IMG/VR virus record: IMGVR_UViG_3300027608_000151
Coordinates: 1 to 24,129 of that record
Reading direction: 5' to 3' (one strand)
Length of the DNA stretch: 24,129 bases
From: a virus
A program made the translations under genes and the position numbers. Under the pieces are notes generated by a model. That model was not told the DNA's origin. It saw only the letters and a list, made by a program, of their open reading frames with translations, and searched no databases. Shown piece by piece: positions 11,795-19,948 of this stretch. Numbering within the stretch: position 1 is the first letter of the stretch; the number at the start of each line of letters is the position of its first letter.

Positions 11795-12199
11795 ATGTCA
11801 CATAACTGGCCACAAGATATTGCTGAAATGCACACTAAATTTGGAGTGAATCCCGTCATTCATTCCTTTGACAAAGAGAAGCTATATTCCTTCCTCGAAT
11901 TTCGAGTTAAATTCCTTGAAGAAGAACTGAATGAAATTAAAAATGCCCGTACCGCGGATGACGTGGTTGATGGTTGCATCGATCTGTGCGTTGTTGCAAT
12001 TGGCACTCTGAACGCATTTAATATCGACTCTCATGAGGCCTGGAATCGTGTTCATCGTGCAAATATGGCAAAGGAAGTTGGCATCAAAGCTAGCCGCCCA
12101 AATCCATTAGGCCTACCTGATCTGATAAAGCCAGCAGGATGGACATCTCCTTCGCACGAAGATAACACAGGTTTACTCGGTCAGGTTTTTACAGATTGA
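11795..12199 (+). CDS. MazG-like nucleoside triphosphate pyrophosphohydrolase
   Basis: A 134-aa all-alpha NTP pyrophosphatase of the MazG/PRA-PH type. Seen: helix 1-2 pair with FLEFRVKFLEEELNEI (the E-E-x-x-E metal site), then DDVVDGCIDLCVVAIGTLNA (the E/D-x-x-D site on helix 4) and a closing W-x-x-V-H-x-A-N-M-A-K segment, which is typical of phage members. It would hydrolyse a dNTP to dNMP plus PPi. In a phage that makes hydroxymethyl-dCMP, destroying dCTP is the role of T4 gp56, which has the same overall fold; that substrate is inference. The gene follows gp43 by 23 bases without SD and overlaps the next by four bases. Confidence 0.75.
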   Translation: MSHNWPQDIAEMHTKFGVNPVIHSFDKEKLYSFLEFRVKFLEEELNEIKNARTADDVVDGCIDLCVVAIGTLNAFNIDSHEAWNRVHRANMAKEVGIKASRPNPLGLPDLIKPAGWTSPSHEDNTGLLGQVFTD

Positions 12200-14331: not shown

Positions 14332-14360
14332 TTTACAAACTGCTATAACTAGTGTATGAT
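14332..14360 (+). promoter_or_regulatory. Promoter of the modification cluster, TTTACA-N17-TATGAT
   Basis: TTTACA (14332-14337), 17 bases, TATGAT (14355-14360) preceded by CTAGTG. The predicted start (14367) is six bases before the ATG at 14373. No other promoter-like element of this kind was seen until 18873, so the cluster may be one transcript. Confidence 0.7.
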
Positions 14361-14372
14361 TATCTCTTTATT

Positions 14373-14723
14373 ATGAAAGAATCAATTAAAGTCCTGCAAG
14401 AGTGTGCAGATCTGCAGCTCAAAAAGTCTAATGATTATCAGAATCCGACGAGTACGATTCGTCAGGCTGATTACTACCCACGCGGTGCTGCATCCATCCT
14501 GGATGTAATGCACACCAAAGTGCTGCGTCTTCGTTCCGTTCTTGAGGCAATGGAGAATGATCCAAATTATTCACCTAATTTTGATTCCCTCGAAGACTCT
14601 GCAAAAGATCTCATCAATTATTCATCCTTCTTTGTTTCTTTTTGCCGTAAGGGTATTGACGGCCAGCGCACTGATCGTGACTTCCTTAACCGCAATCTCA
14701 ATGCTAAATCTACCCAGAGTTAA
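14373..14723 (+). CDS. Nucleotide-modification-associated domain 1 (DUF1599)-like protein
   Basis: A 116-aa helical protein. Features that recall the Nmad1/DUF1599 family: an opening helix with CADLQLKKSNDYQNP, R-x-A-x-Y-Y-P-R-G-A-A-S-I-L, then MHTKVLRLRSVLEAM and a closing SLEDSAKDLINYSSFFVSF. The family is found beside base-modifying enzymes in phages and bacteria; its chemistry is not established. The upstream in-frame GTG at 14352 falls inside the promoter -10 region and is rejected. The stop overlaps the hydroxymethylase start by 23 bases, implying coupled expression. Family call moderate; role inferred from context. Confidence 0.6.
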   Translation: MKESIKVLQECADLQLKKSNDYQNPTSTIRQADYYPRGAASILDVMHTKVLRLRSVLEAMENDPNYSPNFDSLEDSAKDLINYSSFFVSFCRKGIDGQRTDRDFLNRNLNAKSTQS

Positions 14724-15378
14724 TGACATTCGCCAGCATTTTAAAGATGCTCTTACGAATGGCGTCTATACGACAGACAAGAGTGGTGTTAAAACCCTTG
14801 AGTTGTGTGGTGCATCATTCTTTGCAGATGAAGAGGCCATCTTTGGCGAAGTGAATCATGCCTATGTAAAGGCTGAACTTGCCTGGTATGATTCTGAATC
14901 CTTGAATGTAAATGACATTCCTGGTGGTGCTCCAAAGATCTGGAAACAAGTTGCGACAAAAGATGGCTGGATCAACTCCAACTATGGCTGGTGTATTTAC
15001 TCAGAGAATAACCATAAGCAATATGTTTCTGCACGAAATGAGCTTATTGCAAATCGAAATAGCCGCAGAGCCACAATGATCTATACTCGGCCAACGATGC
15101 ATAAAGATTATTGTGAAGATGGCTGTTCAGATTTCATGTGCACAAATGCGGTGCAATATCTTATTCGCGAAAATAAACTTCATGCAATTGTGCAAATGAG
15201 AAGCAATGATGTGATCTTCGGTTATAAGAATGATCGTGCTTGGCAGTTCGAAGTTCAGAATCGACTCCTGAAAGACATCAATGCTCTATCCGATGAGAAA
15301 TATCAATTAGGTGATCTCATTTGGCATGTCGGATCGCTTCACGTCTATGAACGTCATTTCCCACTCATCAATGGATAA
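14701..15378 (+). CDS. 42: dCMP hydroxymethylase (thymidylate synthase superfamily)
   Basis: A 225-aa enzyme predicted to make 5-hydroxymethyl-dCMP from dCMP and methylene-tetrahydrofolate (T4 gp42: 246 aa). Seen: KAELAWY with the general-base Glu at residue 59, KDGWINSNYGW, SRRATMIYTRP, the nucleophile C147 in DFMCTNAVQ, QMRSNDVIFGYKND with D178, and GSLHVYERHF. An ungapped comparison puts D178 at the Asn that selects dUMP in thymidylate synthase; T4 gp42 has C148 and D179 there, the same spacing of 31. This favours dCMP over dUMP. The start is ATG 14701; a longer frame from 14542 only overlaps the previous gene. It overlaps the deaminase start. A plain thymidylate synthase is unlikely. Confidence 0.85.
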   Translation: MLNLPRVNDIRQHFKDALTNGVYTTDKSGVKTLELCGASFFADEEAIFGEVNHAYVKAELAWYDSESLNVNDIPGGAPKIWKQVATKDGWINSNYGWCIYSENNHKQYVSARNELIANRNSRRATMIYTRPTMHKDYCEDGCSDFMCTNAVQYLIRENKLHAIVQMRSNDVIFGYKNDRAWQFEVQNRLLKDINALSDEKYQLGDLIWHVGSLHVYERHFPLING

Positions 15379-15817
15379 CAAATGGAAAGGTCGCTATCTA
15401 GAGCTCGCTAAATGCGTTTCAACTTGGTCAAAGGATCCATCGACTCAGGTTGGATGTGTTGCAATCGGTAGCAAAGGTCAGGTCCTTGCGCAGGGTTATA
15501 ACGGATTCCCTCGTGGAATTGCTGACACCGAATTGCGACTGAATCATCGCCCCACTAAATACAAGTATATGGTTCATGCTGAAATGAATGTAATTTACAA
15601 TGCGACATATAGTGGCGTCTCTTTGGACGGCGCAACGTTATTTGTTCACGGTCTTCCGGTATGTTCAGAATGCGCAAAAGGAATTATTCAGGTTGGAGTA
15701 CGAACCGTTGTTATGCCACATCAAGAGATTCCAGATGCCTGGAGTGAATCGTGGGAATCCACTCGAAACATGTTCAAAGATGCTGGAGTGAATTGGGAAT
15801 TTATTAAACTAGAATAA
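15371..15817 (+). CDS. cd: dCMP deaminase
   Basis: A 148-aa zinc deaminase that converts dCMP to dUMP, the precursor of dTMP. Seen: DPSTQVGCVAIGSKGQVLAQGYNGFPRG, the zinc/catalytic H-A-E (69-71) and P-x-C-x-x-C (C98, C101), as in phage T4 Cd and the ComEB family. The start ATG lies in ATGGATAA, overlapping the hydroxymethylase stop; the frame upstream to 15311 lies wholly inside that gene. In this setting deaminase and hydroxymethylase compete for dCMP, as in T4. The usual allosteric dCTP/dTTP control cannot be judged from the sequence. Confidence 0.92.
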   Translation: MDNKWKGRYLELAKCVSTWSKDPSTQVGCVAIGSKGQVLAQGYNGFPRGIADTELRLNHRPTKYKYMVHAEMNVIYNATYSGVSLDGATLFVHGLPVCSECAKGIIQVGVRTVVMPHQEIPDAWSESWESTRNMFKDAGVNWEFIKLE

Positions 15818-15820
15818 TTT

Positions 15821-16981
15821 ATGGGACTCTTGACTACACGGTATTACGATGAATTTCTTCGCTATTATCAAATAGCAAAAGACCAGCAGGAAAAGTGCAA
15901 CGTATCGGTGCATCATCCTTATGGGATGTTAACACATCTCGAGTCGAACATGAACGACGATCTTCTTGAAAATGTAGAGCTCTATGACGTGGTTGAGCGT
16001 AAATACGCTGGATTCTCTCAGATTGTCAATGATTGTTTTTATGGATGGACTCCTGATCATCCTTATTGGGCAAAGATGTCTGCGGGCAATCATACTACTC
16101 AACGTAAGACCGTGGCCACAAACTGGACTGGAAAGAAATTCTCCCTTGCGGAATGGATGTACATATTCATTCTTCATCGCGTAACCGGTTCTGCCATCAA
16201 TTATGCAACCAAACCGTCTGGTTACCATAACACACTTCTCTTTAAACTTCATGCAGCTTCTTCAATTCCTGAGATGACGGAAATTGTGAAAGCGGAAAAG
16301 TCTCCGTTTTACACTTCAGTTGGATATCAGTTTCCCGCATTTCCAAAACCGCCTGCGGGTTATAAGCGCGGTGGCGATTACTACCTCTGCGAATTTGCTC
16401 CACGTTTGGCCACTGAACTTGCAGATTTCTTAGTTGCAGGAAATAAGAAGTCACTTCGCGAAATTGGCGAATTCATGTTGAGCTGGAATCAAGCAAATGG
16501 AATGCGTAGGTTTGCTTTCCAATATGCAGCAGTTGTTGCTGACGTTGCTGACTGGTTTCCTCAATATGTCCATCGTGATACTCCATTCTATTATGGTACC
16601 AATGCCATTGAGTGCATTTCATATCTTGCGACGCCAACCAAGAAAATGAAGACTGAGGCTTTCCTCGATCTTGTCATGGAAAAGATTCAATCTGATACCG
16701 GGGCATTCCCATATAACGCAGAAGATGTGTGCTGTGACTTTATTCGTTGGGTTGAGAATTACGTTCGCCCAGGTGCGGCATACAACCATCTTGACAGAGA
16801 TAAACTCTGGTCATCACACCGGATCCACGATCACCCGTACGGGCGCCAGAAGCCAATGCTTGAGCTGGGCCTCATTAAATCATTTAACGATCTTGACGTA
16901 CATCCATCAGACGACTATGTCATTAGCCGTGCCGGAGTCACTGTCGAAAAATACAAAGAGCTCTGCAAAACCTTAAAATAA
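15821..16981 (+). CDS. Putative amino acid:DNA transferase-like protein (aGPT-pyrophosphorylase-like)
   Basis: A 386-aa, mainly helical protein. The core EWMYIFILHRVTGSAINYA followed by GYHNTLL (about 112-140), a FPAFPKPPAGYKRGG loop, and the later RDKLWSSHRIHDHPYGRQKP (about 322-341) recall the alpha-glutamyl/putrescinyl-thymine pyrophosphorylase group, DNA-glycosylase-like proteins that put amino acids or polyamines on phosphorylated 5-hydroxymethyluracil in phage DNA. This is pattern recognition, not an alignment. It lies three bases after the deaminase and just before a PLP enzyme, a setting that fits base hypermodification. No P-loop kinase domain is fused and none is seen in the window. 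If the base is hydroxymethylcytosine, it acts on a new substrate. No SD; ATG follows TAATTT. Confidence 0.5.
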   Translation: MGLLTTRYYDEFLRYYQIAKDQQEKCNVSVHHPYGMLTHLESNMNDDLLENVELYDVVERKYAGFSQIVNDCFYGWTPDHPYWAKMSAGNHTTQRKTVATNWTGKKFSLAEWMYIFILHRVTGSAINYATKPSGYHNTLLFKLHAASSIPEMTEIVKAEKSPFYTSVGYQFPAFPKPPAGYKRGGDYYLCEFAPRLATELADFLVAGNKKSLREIGEFMLSWNQANGMRRFAFQYAAVVADVADWFPQYVHRDTPFYYGTNAIECISYLATPTKKMKTEAFLDLVMEKIQSDTGAFPYNAEDVCCDFIRWVENYVRPGAAYNHLDRDKLWSSHRIHDHPYGRQKPMLELGLIKSFNDLDVHPSDDYVISRAGVTVEKYKELCKTLK

Positions 16982-16982
16982 T

Positions 16983-17873
16983 ATGTCCCACGACAATCAT
17001 GTCATAGATGGTTTAAATAAAGATGTTGGACTCATGTCCTGGAAAGAAGCCAAGGACTATTATCTTTCGCTGTGCGAAGGATGGACTCCGTATAATCCAG
17101 ATCCCGTCATCATTGAACACGACGGAGTTCAGGTGGTTCGAGACGATCTCATCGTAGGAACGAAAACAAGAGCTGGTGATTTACTTGTTGCAAAAATCAA
17201 ATCGAATCACATTGTTTATTCGCAACCTCGCGTTGGACTTGCAGGAGTATCGATCTGCGATACCGCAAATCGGATTCATAAAAAGGTCACTCTTTTCATG
17301 CCGTCTTCGAAGAAAATTTCGCCTCATCAGGCTTGCTGCATTGAACGTGGAGCAACACCGATCTTTGAACGTATTGCGGCAATGCCGAATCTGAATCGAC
17401 TTGCTGAAAAGTGGGCAAAAGACAATAATGCATTTTTTGTTCCATTAGGTCTAAGACATGAATACGCCACTGCGGGTATTATTCATGCTGCATCTAAATT
17501 GCCAGAACCCGATGAAGTCTATGTTGCTATTTCTACCGGCGTATTGACCCGAGCTCTTCAAATTGCCTGGCCCAATGCCAAATTTACCTGCATCGCCGTC
17601 GCCCGCAATCTGAAAGAAGGTGAATTAGGTCGTGCAACTGTGATTAGCGAACCGCTAGACTTTCAAACTCCGGAAAAGAAAGAGAACCTACCGCCGTTTC
17701 CAACAGTGATTACATACGACGCAAAGGTCTGGAAATATATTCCTAAAAATACCGGAAAGAAGATTTTAATGTGGAATGTTGGAACTGATCCGGTTTTAAA
17801 AGATGCATCAATTATAGATAGAACAGATTCTTATAGAAAATGGAAGAAAGATGAACAATTGGCAGAATTATGA
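16983..17873 (+). CDS. Fold-type II PLP-dependent enzyme
   Basis: A 296-aa enzyme with the look of the tryptophan-synthase-beta/ACC-deaminase fold. Seen: VGTKTRAGDLLVA (about 58-70), matching the G-N-K-T-R-K-L-E-x-L block whose Lys (here K61) binds pyridoxal phosphate; SQPRVGLAGVSICDTAN (about 80-96) as the substrate/cofactor strand-helix; LFMPSSKKISPHQ and a C-terminal half with EVYVAISTGVLTRALQ, where the PLP-phosphate-binding loop is expected. It is about 30-50 residues shorter than many relatives. It follows the transferase-like gene by one base and overlaps the next by ATGA, so it is part of the cluster. Probable role: an elimination, replacement or decarboxylation on an amino acid, free or already attached to the base. 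Substrate unknown. Confidence 0.6.
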   Translation: MSHDNHVIDGLNKDVGLMSWKEAKDYYLSLCEGWTPYNPDPVIIEHDGVQVVRDDLIVGTKTRAGDLLVAKIKSNHIVYSQPRVGLAGVSICDTANRIHKKVTLFMPSSKKISPHQACCIERGATPIFERIAAMPNLNRLAEKWAKDNNAFFVPLGLRHEYATAGIIHAASKLPEPDEVYVAISTGVLTRALQIAWPNAKFTCIAVARNLKEGELGRATVISEPLDFQTPEKKENLPPFPTVITYDAKVWKYIPKNTGKKILMWNVGTDPVLKDASIIDRTDSYRKWKKDEQLAEL

Positions 17874-18868
17874 ACGTTTTAATCACGACTCCAATGGCTC
17901 CAATCTCGGAGCGTATTTCGTCTCATCGGGCTGCGCAGGCTGCAATCTATGCTGATCAATTAAGGTACATTGGTCACGATGTTACTGTTAACTATGGCGG
18001 TAAGATCGAAGATTACAATGACTTTGAATGCATTGCTGTTTATCACGGTAATGATTGGGGTGGTACGGTAAATTTGTTTGGTGGAGTAAAGCAGTACGGG
18101 TCAATTGATCAGATCGTTCGTCTATCTAAATTCACTGGTAAAGTTCTTTCTCTCGTGATCGATTTCCCGAAATATTCTGAGATGATCAAGCCGCGGGTGG
18201 ATAAAGAACCAGCATCGCATCCGGATTGGAAGAGTGTTGACTGGACTAACTTGGCACAGATTGAAACATTCGCAACGGTCATCAATCCCAACAATGAACT
18301 TCCTAGCACGCAACTAGCATTTGGTGATTCCCACGCAATTTCTATGTATCGACCCGGCTGGAAAGTTAATTCGGTTCCCTTCAAGACCCTTCACGGTGCA
18401 CTTGATATAGGTCTCGAATCATTCGTTCCGGATAATACGCTGGTGTATTTTGAATTGGAAGTTTATTTTGGCAACATTGATATTCGCCACCATCTACTTC
18501 GTCAGCCGGATCCAGTCAAAGCTACGCAGGCTCTTGTGGCAGAATATGTGAAGCAATGCCAAGATCTCTCTGAGAAACATAATGCAGAGGTGACAATCTG
18601 GGAACCGCTTCCGATTGAAAACGAATCGCGTAAACTACCAAAGACTGGGTATTACAAAGACGCTCCGTTTTACGGGAGCTGGAATGAACGTAACGAAATT
18701 CGAAAGATCTTTGTTAGGGAACTAGAGGAAAACGTCAAAGGAAACGTTCGTGTGTTTAAATGGGTTTCAAAGCTAATGAATCTCAAAGGCGAATTAGATT
18801 TTGCCTGCATGGAAAAACCACAATCTGTTCATTTATCCAGAGAATTTTATCCTCACTGGAATCAATAA
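17870..18868 (+). CDS. SGNH-hydrolase-like protein
   Basis: A 332-aa protein. The N-terminal 130 residues form an alpha/beta domain (MNVLITTPMAPISE, LRYIGHDVTVNYGGK) that resembles the start of GT-B glycosyltransferases but lacks enough to name it. The middle has SGNH blocks: FGDSHA (G152, D153, S154, H155) and VYFGNIDIRHHL (G201, N202, D204, R206), and the end has SVHLSREFYPHW, where the catalytic His would lie. The Asp usually found three residues before that His is not there. Such proteins hydrolyse or transfer acyl groups. ATGA overlap with the PLP gene argues that it works in the same pathway, perhaps on the modified base or on an activated precursor. Confidence 0.55.
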   Translation: MNVLITTPMAPISERISSHRAAQAAIYADQLRYIGHDVTVNYGGKIEDYNDFECIAVYHGNDWGGTVNLFGGVKQYGSIDQIVRLSKFTGKVLSLVIDFPKYSEMIKPRVDKEPASHPDWKSVDWTNLAQIETFATVINPNNELPSTQLAFGDSHAISMYRPGWKVNSVPFKTLHGALDIGLESFVPDNTLVYFELEVYFGNIDIRHHLLRQPDPVKATQALVAEYVKQCQDLSEKHNAEVTIWEPLPIENESRKLPKTGYYKDAPFYGSWNERNEIRKIFVRELEENVKGNVRVFKWVSKLMNLKGELDFACMEKPQSVHLSREFYPHWNQ

Positions 18869-18907: not shown

Positions 18908-19948
18908 ATGTCATCACTACTCGCCAAATTAAAAAAGAATTCGCGGATTGAAAGTTCCGCCACTCTTGAGGATTCTCAGATCTTCAATCAAAGCCCCAGT
19001 ATTCCTACGGATGTTCCCATGATCAATGTTGCTCTTTCGGGCGATCTTGAGAAAGGTCTCACATCAGGTCTTACTGTCCTCGCAGGTCCTTCAAAGCACT
19101 TCAAGACTTCATTTGCACTGATCATGATTGCTGCGTACATGAAGAAATATCCCGAGTCGGTTGTTCTCTTTTATGATTCGGAATTTGGTTCTCCTCAGGC
19201 TTATTTCAAGACCTTTGGCATTGACACTAGCCGTGTTCTTCATTGCCCAATTCTGAATGTCGAAGATCTCAAATTCGATCTCATGAAGCAATTAGATGGC
19301 ATCGAGAAGAGCGATAAAGTAATTATCATGATTGACTCTGTGGGTAATCTTGCTTCTAAGAAAGAAGTTGAGGATGCTCTGAATGAGAAATCTGTGGCTG
19401 ATATGACTCGTGCAAAAGCATTCAAGAGTCTCTTCCGCATGGTCACTCCACATCTTGCAATGAAGGACATCCCCCTCGTTGCGGTTGGTCATACATACAA
19501 GACTCAGGACATGTATCCCAAGGATGTTCTTTCAGGTGGCACGGGTCTCTACTATTCTGCCAACACCGTCTGGATTCTCGGGCGTCAGCAAGACAAGGGC
19601 GATGAAGGCATTGAAGGTTACCATTTCGTAATCAATGTTGACAAATCCCGGTTCGTGAAAGAAAAGTCTAAAGTTCCTATCTCAGTCTCGTTTGCAAATG
19701 GCGTTGAGAAATACTCAGGTCTTCTTGATGTTGCCCTTGAGGGCGGATTTGTCACAAAGCCGTCAATGGGATGGTATGCAAAGAAGGGTGATGATGCTAA
19801 ATTCCGTGAGAAAGATACATACAATAAGGAATTCTGGCAGGACATCCTTGATTTAAAGGAATTCAAAGACTATATTCGTCAACGTTATACTCTTGGTATT
19901 GATGGACAACACTACAGTCCAGCAATTATTGATGACGATGAAATCTAA
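18908..19948 (+). CDS. uvsX: RecA-like recombinase UvsX
   Basis: A 346-aa strand-exchange recombinase (T4 UvsX: 391 aa) that pairs homologous DNA in recombination-dependent replication and repair. Seen: Walker A GPSKHFKTS (60-68), similar to the T4 form, then VVLFYDSEFGSP, Walker B VIIMIDSVGNL, the L2-like loop region around SGGTGLYYSANTVW and an acidic C-terminal tail ending DDDEI, as in UvsX. The ATG has no SD and sits on the predicted transcription start. It works with the gp46/47 nuclease encoded at the left edge and with gp41 downstream. The next gene's start lies inside its last codons. Confidence 0.93.
   Translation: MSSLLAKLKKNSRIESSATLEDSQIFNQSPSIPTDVPMINVALSGDLEKGLTSGLTVLAGPSKHFKTSFALIMIAAYMKKYPESVVLFYDSEFGSPQAYFKTFGIDTSRVLHCPILNVEDLKFDLMKQLDGIEKSDKVIIMIDSVGNLASKKEVEDALNEKSVADMTRAKAFKSLFRMVTPHLAMKDIPLVAVGHTYKTQDMYPKDVLSGGTGLYYSANTVWILGRQQDKGDEGIEGYHFVINVDKSRFVKEKSKVPISVSFANGVEKYSGLLDVALEGGFVTKPSMGWYAKKGDDAKFREKDTYNKEFWQDILDLKEFKDYIRQRYTLGIDGQHYSPAIIDDDEI

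Follow-up and report, generated by a model that had tools for sequence, protein, structure and literature searches.

Organization of the Gene Cluster

The window studied here is the entire 24,129-base contig of IMG/VR record IMGVR_UViG_3300027608_000151, which carries a T4-like replication module and, within it, a cluster of six open reading frames (ORFs) at positions 14373-18868. On balance, the cluster appears to be a 5-hydroxymethylcytosine (hmC)-based, kinase-less variant of the amino-acid hypermodification systems of phages M6 and ViI, located in the position of the T4 glucosylating gene. Three of its products are designated below by the first base of their genes (15821, 16983, and 17870). 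The genes and domains of the cluster and its right flank are as follows:

14373-14723, + strand: small Nmad1-like (DUF1599) protein; PF07659 below the cut-off, E 0.026
14701-15378, + strand: dCMP hydroxymethylase, T4 gene 42 homologue with the dCMP-type Asp; 1b49, E 5e-80; GYKNDRAW motif
15371-15817, + strand: dCMP deaminase; PF00383, E 1e-17; PHROG 174, E 8e-41
15821-16981, + strand: aGPT-like protein with a helix-hairpin-helix (HhH) DNA-glycosylase-like fold, proposed DNA-base transferase; AlphaFold2 pLDDT 87.9; AGOG/Qng1, Z ~8
16983-17873, + strand: fold-type II pyridoxal phosphate (PLP) enzyme, remote homologue of M6 gp52; hhalign P 97.8, E 8.7e-13
17870-18283, + strand: N-terminal domain of 17870, similar to T4 beta-glucosyltransferase (BGT); sub-cut-off PF09198, Foldseek, and hhalign matches
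18284-18868, + strand: SGNH/GDSL domain of 17870 (Ser154, Gly176, Asn202, His321); Z 14.0 versus 2hsj
18908-19948, + strand: uvsX, the right flank defining the T4 b-gt slot; DNA match annotated as RecA-like/uvsX

All six ORFs named in a preliminary description of this DNA were present, and they are tightly spaced, with overlaps of 4-23 bases and gaps of 1-3 bases. Taken from the family-consistent ATG at 14701, the hydroxymethylase gene overlaps the Nmad1-like gene by 23 bases (a TTG lies further upstream at 14542), and the deaminase gene, from the family-consistent ATG at 15371, overlaps the hydroxymethylase gene by 8 bases. The deaminase and 15821 genes are separated by 3 bases, and the 15821 and PLP genes by 1 base, while the PLP and 17870 genes overlap by 4 bases. 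The single promoter previously proposed for the cluster was not borne out, promoter-like matches being no commoner in the window than in shuffles (13 versus 15.3), with one 10/12 match at 14332-14360. No tRNAs or Rfam RNAs were found in the window. The DUF1599 (Nmad1) match stayed below the cut-off in the window; seven of the nine scanned family members also matched, with E from 0.0015 to 0.16.

The T4 gene order is 43, imm, 42, b-gt, segA, uvsX, 40, 41, and that of the window is polymerase, Nmad1-like gene, 42-like hydroxymethylase, dCMP deaminase, 15821, PLP, 17870, uvsX, a small gene, and a 41-like gene. By this comparison, 17870 stands in the b-gt slot, with the deaminase, 15821, and PLP genes as insertions separating it from the gene 42 homologue.

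Hydroxymethylase and the Starting Base

The best Protein Data Bank (PDB) match of the hydroxymethylase was T4 dCMP hydroxymethylase (1b49), and PF00303 was also matched. In the alignment with 1b49, the specificity position (D179 of T4 gp42) is Asp, as in T4; the PDB sequence 6l18 has Asn there. In the thymidylate synthase family, this Asp sets the preference for dCMP over dUMP. The Asp motif of the GYKNDRAW type was found in all 60 readable hydroxymethylase sequences from cluster contigs (some contigs being counted twice), and the dCMP-type Asp likewise occurs in the hydroxymethylases of Aeromonas phage 44RR2.8t (44RR) and of phiAS4. The enzyme is thus a T4 gp42-type dCMP hydroxymethylase by its Asp at T4 position 179, in agreement with the earlier assignment, and not a dUMP-specific hydroxymethylase of the M6/ViI-type thymidine systems. 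Because all readable hydroxymethylases have the dCMP-type Asp, the starting base of the cassette is, judging from these sequences, very probably hmC. Elsewhere in the window, one further gene was noted:

11795-12199, + strand: MazG/PRA-PH-like pyrophosphohydrolase (PF01503, E 5e-7), for which a role as a dCTPase is possible

PLP Enzyme

The 16983 protein matched PHROG 7093. Comparison of its family profile with M6 gp52 using hhalign gave an alignment of 224 columns at the P and E values listed above; in M6, the gene for gp52 is flanked by those for the amino acid:DNA transferase (ADDT) gp51 and the radical SAM protein gp53. The Schiff-base Lys61 was invariant (23/23 sequences), and the STG loop was nearly so. 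The fold-type II assignment made earlier therefore holds by homology and by the Schiff-base Lys, and sequence comparison further identifies 16983 as a remote homologue of the PLP enzyme from the M6 thymidine hypermodification cluster. For the M6 and ViI pathways, Lee et al. (2018, 2022) reportedly described a PLP-dependent step in which amino acids already joined to hydroxymethyluracil (hmU) are decarboxylated, and a tailoring role for 16983 is proposed for this reason. PLP relatives were also observed in the Erythrobacter and Microcystis phages L004 and L005, where they are annotated as DNA modification methylases; in Mae-JY30, the gene comes directly after two ParB/sulfiredoxin genes.

15821 Protein

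The PDB chains nearest to the AlphaFold2 model of 15821 were HhH DNA glycosylases (AGOG, 8-oxoguanine) and the queuine-salvage enzyme Qng1, all at 5-6 Å, a weak but consistent similarity. Among viral models, the top match was a homologue with 63% identity bearing the name 'amino acid:DNA transferase domain', and a second ADDT-named model matched with E 4e-4 and TM 0.47/0.54. The helical 5-hmdU DNA kinase proteins of phiW-14 and SP10 were weaker fold matches, with probabilities of 0.96-0.99. Pfam gave no credible family match for 15821 or 28 homologues, and tblastn searches of 15821 and of the A4 family described below against 50,697 phage records returned no match.

17870 Protein

The model of 17870 reached a pLDDT of 89.8 and places the SGNH domain at residues 139-331. 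This domain superposed on 2hsj with an rmsd of 2.8 over 169 residues, and sialate O-acetylesterase and the O-acetyltransferase PatB were also close. Ser154, Gly176, Asn202, Asp204, Glu315, and His321 were invariant in 34/34 family sequences. The SGNH-like character suggested earlier is thus confirmed by the fold and by the Ser, Gly, Asn, and His blocks, with block III reading GNID rather than GxND. The Asp typically found three residues before the catalytic His is not kept in the 17870 family, which has Q, K, S, H, or R at this position and the invariant Glu315 instead.

The preliminary description did not include the N-terminal domain. PF09198 (T4 BGT) was the Pfam family matched by most 17870 members (14/36, versus 3 for the next best), and in seven related contigs its matches lie inside the 17870 gene. 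A Foldseek search with the 17870 model retrieved T4 BGT with a probability of 0.99, and hhalign of the 17870 family with T4 BGT gave E 1.4e-4. When the single T4 BGT sequence was compared with the 17870 profile, 1/1000 shuffles scored higher; this control is weak, and the case for BGT similarity is therefore made by the number of Pfam matches, the fold comparison, and the location of the gene. The catalytic Asp100 of T4 BGT aligns, in a weak alignment, with Asp98 of 17870, kept in 28/34 sequences. Overall, the N-terminal domain resembles T4 BGT, and the gene position supports descent from b-gt.

In the 795-residue protein of 44RR, a 17870-type part is joined to a C-terminal region that matches HMUDK_hel weakly (E 0.0036) and in which the GxGP...GPG pattern of HMUDK_hel was recognized by eye in comparison with ViI. 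Through this fusion, a cultured phage provides a link between 17870 and helical proteins that modify bases. Further genes were observed next to 17870 homologues in some loci: a C5-cytosine methylase-like gene (PF00145) directly 3' of the homologue (L083:9955-11154 and L121:12638-13840), and, in L105:2950-4715, inserted genes resembling nucleotide-sugar epimerase and UDP-glucose dehydrogenase that separate the homologue from uvsX.

Conservation and Linkage in Relatives

Pattern scans of IMG/VR yielded 51 loci for 15821 and 89 for the PLP gene, 80 of which were kept; some of these loci share contigs. Wherever the flank was sufficient, a 15821 homologue was located within 3 kb upstream of the PLP gene (76/76 PLP loci) and a 17870 homologue downstream of it (83/83). 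The hydroxymethylase gene was also upstream in 30 of the 43 PLP loci having 7.5 kb of upstream sequence; the remaining 13 belong to a group with this gene elsewhere in the same genome, as on the 127- and 160-kb contigs. Even in the rearranged locus L186 (hydroxymethylase, 17870, PLP, 15821), all four genes remain together. The linkage of 15821, PLP, and 17870 far exceeds chance proximity, and the family of environmental T4-like phages bearing the cassette is widespread. Copies were also observed on contigs binned with bacterial metagenome-assembled genomes (L181-L188; Bacteroidetes, Microbacteriaceae, Rhodobacteraceae, and others), which are probably phage contigs inside those bins.

Among loci with 15821 proteins sharing 92-99% identity with that of the window, the PLP gene in the same place is either of the window type or of a 38% identical type. 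The latter occurs in L008, L009, L012-L014, and L047, whose 15821 genes show 92-97% identity; an example of the divergent gene is L012:9143-10090, aligned to 16983-17873 of the window. This pattern suggests that a putative tailoring step is swapped between phages through PLP replacement among close relatives.

A family of about 325 residues, A4, was present in 56/97 loci (for example, L018:4366-5355), between or beside the 15821 and PLP homologues. Its profile showed weak kinship with 15821-family members (E 1.7e-5 at best, the database being small), and A4 is maybe a second helical partner in these relatives. It was rejected as the missing partner of the window cassette, since neither the window nor its nearest long relatives contain it.

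Kinase, Glycosyltransferase, and Radical SAM Genes

Since the window is the whole contig, the remaining genome could be examined only through relatives. M6 gp54 belongs to the P-loop 5-hmdU DNA kinase family (PF18748); as a query, it gave no match in the window or in 12 related contigs, which are possibly incomplete, and it found ViI and phiW-14. PF18748 itself gave one sub-threshold match in one related contig, and the P-loop kinase was not found in 44RR either. The lack of a visible kinase noted earlier thus extends to the 12 relatives, where the absence of a recognizable gene from incomplete contigs is suggestive only. T4 alpha-glucosyltransferase had no match, and BGT matches were confined to the 17870 genes. 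Radical SAM genes were present in four related contigs; neither the window nor the relatives nearest to it had one.

Proposed Pathway and Alternative Explanations

According to the proposed pathway, the hydroxymethylase would make hm-dCMP, which would be incorporated into DNA as hmC; this step is strongly indicated by the active-site Asp. The 15821 protein may then flip hmC and replace its 5-hydroxymethyl group by an amino acid or amine, as suggested by its fold and gene company and modelled on the ADDTs acting on hmU. The PLP enzyme would reshape the attached amino acid, decarboxylation or an elimination being the most likely reactions. Finally, the BGT-like domain of 17870 might recognize hmC DNA, with the SGNH domain attaching an acyl group to the side chain or to hmC itself, or taking one off. 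The adduct, the activation of hmC, and the SGNH reaction are all inferred, and the preliminary interpretation is supported in part. To our knowledge, ADDT systems all modify hmU or thymine-type bases, and a literature search, with most subscription papers outside its reach, found no description of such a system on hmC.

Several results weigh against this reading. The ADDT (PF18724) cut-off was not reached by 15821, by 28 homologues, or in 13 contigs, nor was that of HMUDK_hel (PF18723) in the cluster contigs, while M6, ViI, and phiW-14 matched both families; no hhalign score of the 15821 profile against small alignments of ADDT and HMUDK_hel was significant. The ADDT and HMUDK_hel profiles, however, scarcely detect each other, so the null comparison leaves kinship possible. 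The modelled fold of 15821 appears to resemble the ADDT/HMUDK_hel group and would be compatible with the role of either a transferase or a kinase partner. The earlier aGPT-like assignment is therefore supported as a probable fold relationship and fails as detectable membership in either Pfam family. Known 5-hmdU P-loop kinases were not found in related contigs of up to 305 kb, and A4, present in many relatives, is missing both from the window and from the long relatives closest to it. All PF09198 matches were below the cut-off (best E 0.0015), and 17870 does not qualify as a BGT family member by this measure.

The missing kinase might be explained if 17870 stood in for it: the BGT-like domain would bind hmC, the SGNH domain would esterify its hydroxymethyl group, and 15821, as an HhH-glycosylase-like transferase, would displace the ester with an amine or a PLP-tailored amino acid. 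Such a kinase-free route would fit the failure of a query that finds M6, ViI, and phiW-14 to detect a P-loop kinase in the window or the 12 relatives, the 44RR fusion of a 17870-type protein to an HMUDK_hel-like domain, and the similarly composite annotated 5-hmdU DNA kinase of SP10 (637 residues), part of which matches the 15821 fold. However, SGNH enzymes are mostly hydrolases, the acyl donor is not known here, a non-homologous or host kinase could serve, and the relatives are mostly fragments; we regard this route as rather unlikely. A simpler O-linked group on hmC, for example an ester of an acyl or amino-acyl group attached by 17870, with 15821 only presenting the flipped base and the PLP enzyme making the donor from free amino acids, also seems doubtful. 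The Aeromonas T4-like phages, which have 17870-type proteins without detected 15821 or PLP homologues, agree with it, but 15821 homologues adjoin the PLP gene in every testable locus, and the PLP relative gp52 neighbours an ADDT in M6. It is very improbable that 15821 acts as a genuine DNA glycosylase or in DNA repair, amid ordinary nucleotide metabolism: 8-oxoguanine glycosylases and Qng1 are indeed its nearest PDB folds, but among viral models it is closest to ADDT and HMUDK_hel proteins, and the strict linkage with the PLP and 17870 genes would be left unexplained.

Comparison with Known Systems

The M6 thymidine cluster encodes gp51 (ADDT), gp52 (PLP), gp53 (radical SAM), gp54 (kinase), gp55 (HMUDK_hel), and gp58 (thymidylate synthase-like). 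Three of its components have counterparts in the window, namely the hydroxymethylase of the thymidylate synthase family, a helical protein of the aGPT type, and the PLP enzyme, which is homologous in the two; the window differs in its dCMP-type hydroxymethylase, in the lack of a detected P-loop kinase and radical SAM gene, and in the added BGT-like/SGNH protein. Salmonella phage ViI and Delftia phage phiW-14 likewise have proteins of the ADDT and HMUDK_hel fold group, but their systems are hmU-based, with Pfam-recognizable members and a kinase relative. The T4 gene 42/b-gt module resembles the window in its dCMP hydroxymethylase and in the gene before uvsX, whose product in the window has a BGT-like N-terminus; unlike in T4, an SGNH domain takes the place of the UDP-glucose half, and the module is interrupted by the dCMP deaminase, 15821, and PLP genes. 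Aeromonas phages 44RR2.8t and 31 possess a 17870-type protein (795 aa), and 44RR also combines a dCMP-type hydroxymethylase with no detected 5-hmdU P-loop kinase; in these phages, however, the 17870-type part is fused to an HMUDK_hel-like domain, and 15821 and PLP homologues were not detected.

Synechococcus phage S-B43 contains 5-carboxymethylcytosine-glycine in its DNA and thus shares with the present proposal the use of cytosine as the handle for an amino-acid adduct, but it employs a homologue of a carboxy-SAM-dependent methyltransferase and an amide ligase and does not proceed from hmC (PMC12783734).

If the hmC-based hypermodification proposed for the window is correct, amino acid:DNA transferase chemistry would gain hmC as a second base through enzymes of the same type, and these would serve as tools for labelling hmC in DNA. 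Such a modification could also shield many T4-like phages of fresh and marine waters against defences that depend on nucleases. The 17870 chimera hints at the way in which the locus of a glucosyltransferase is re-used for other chemistry.

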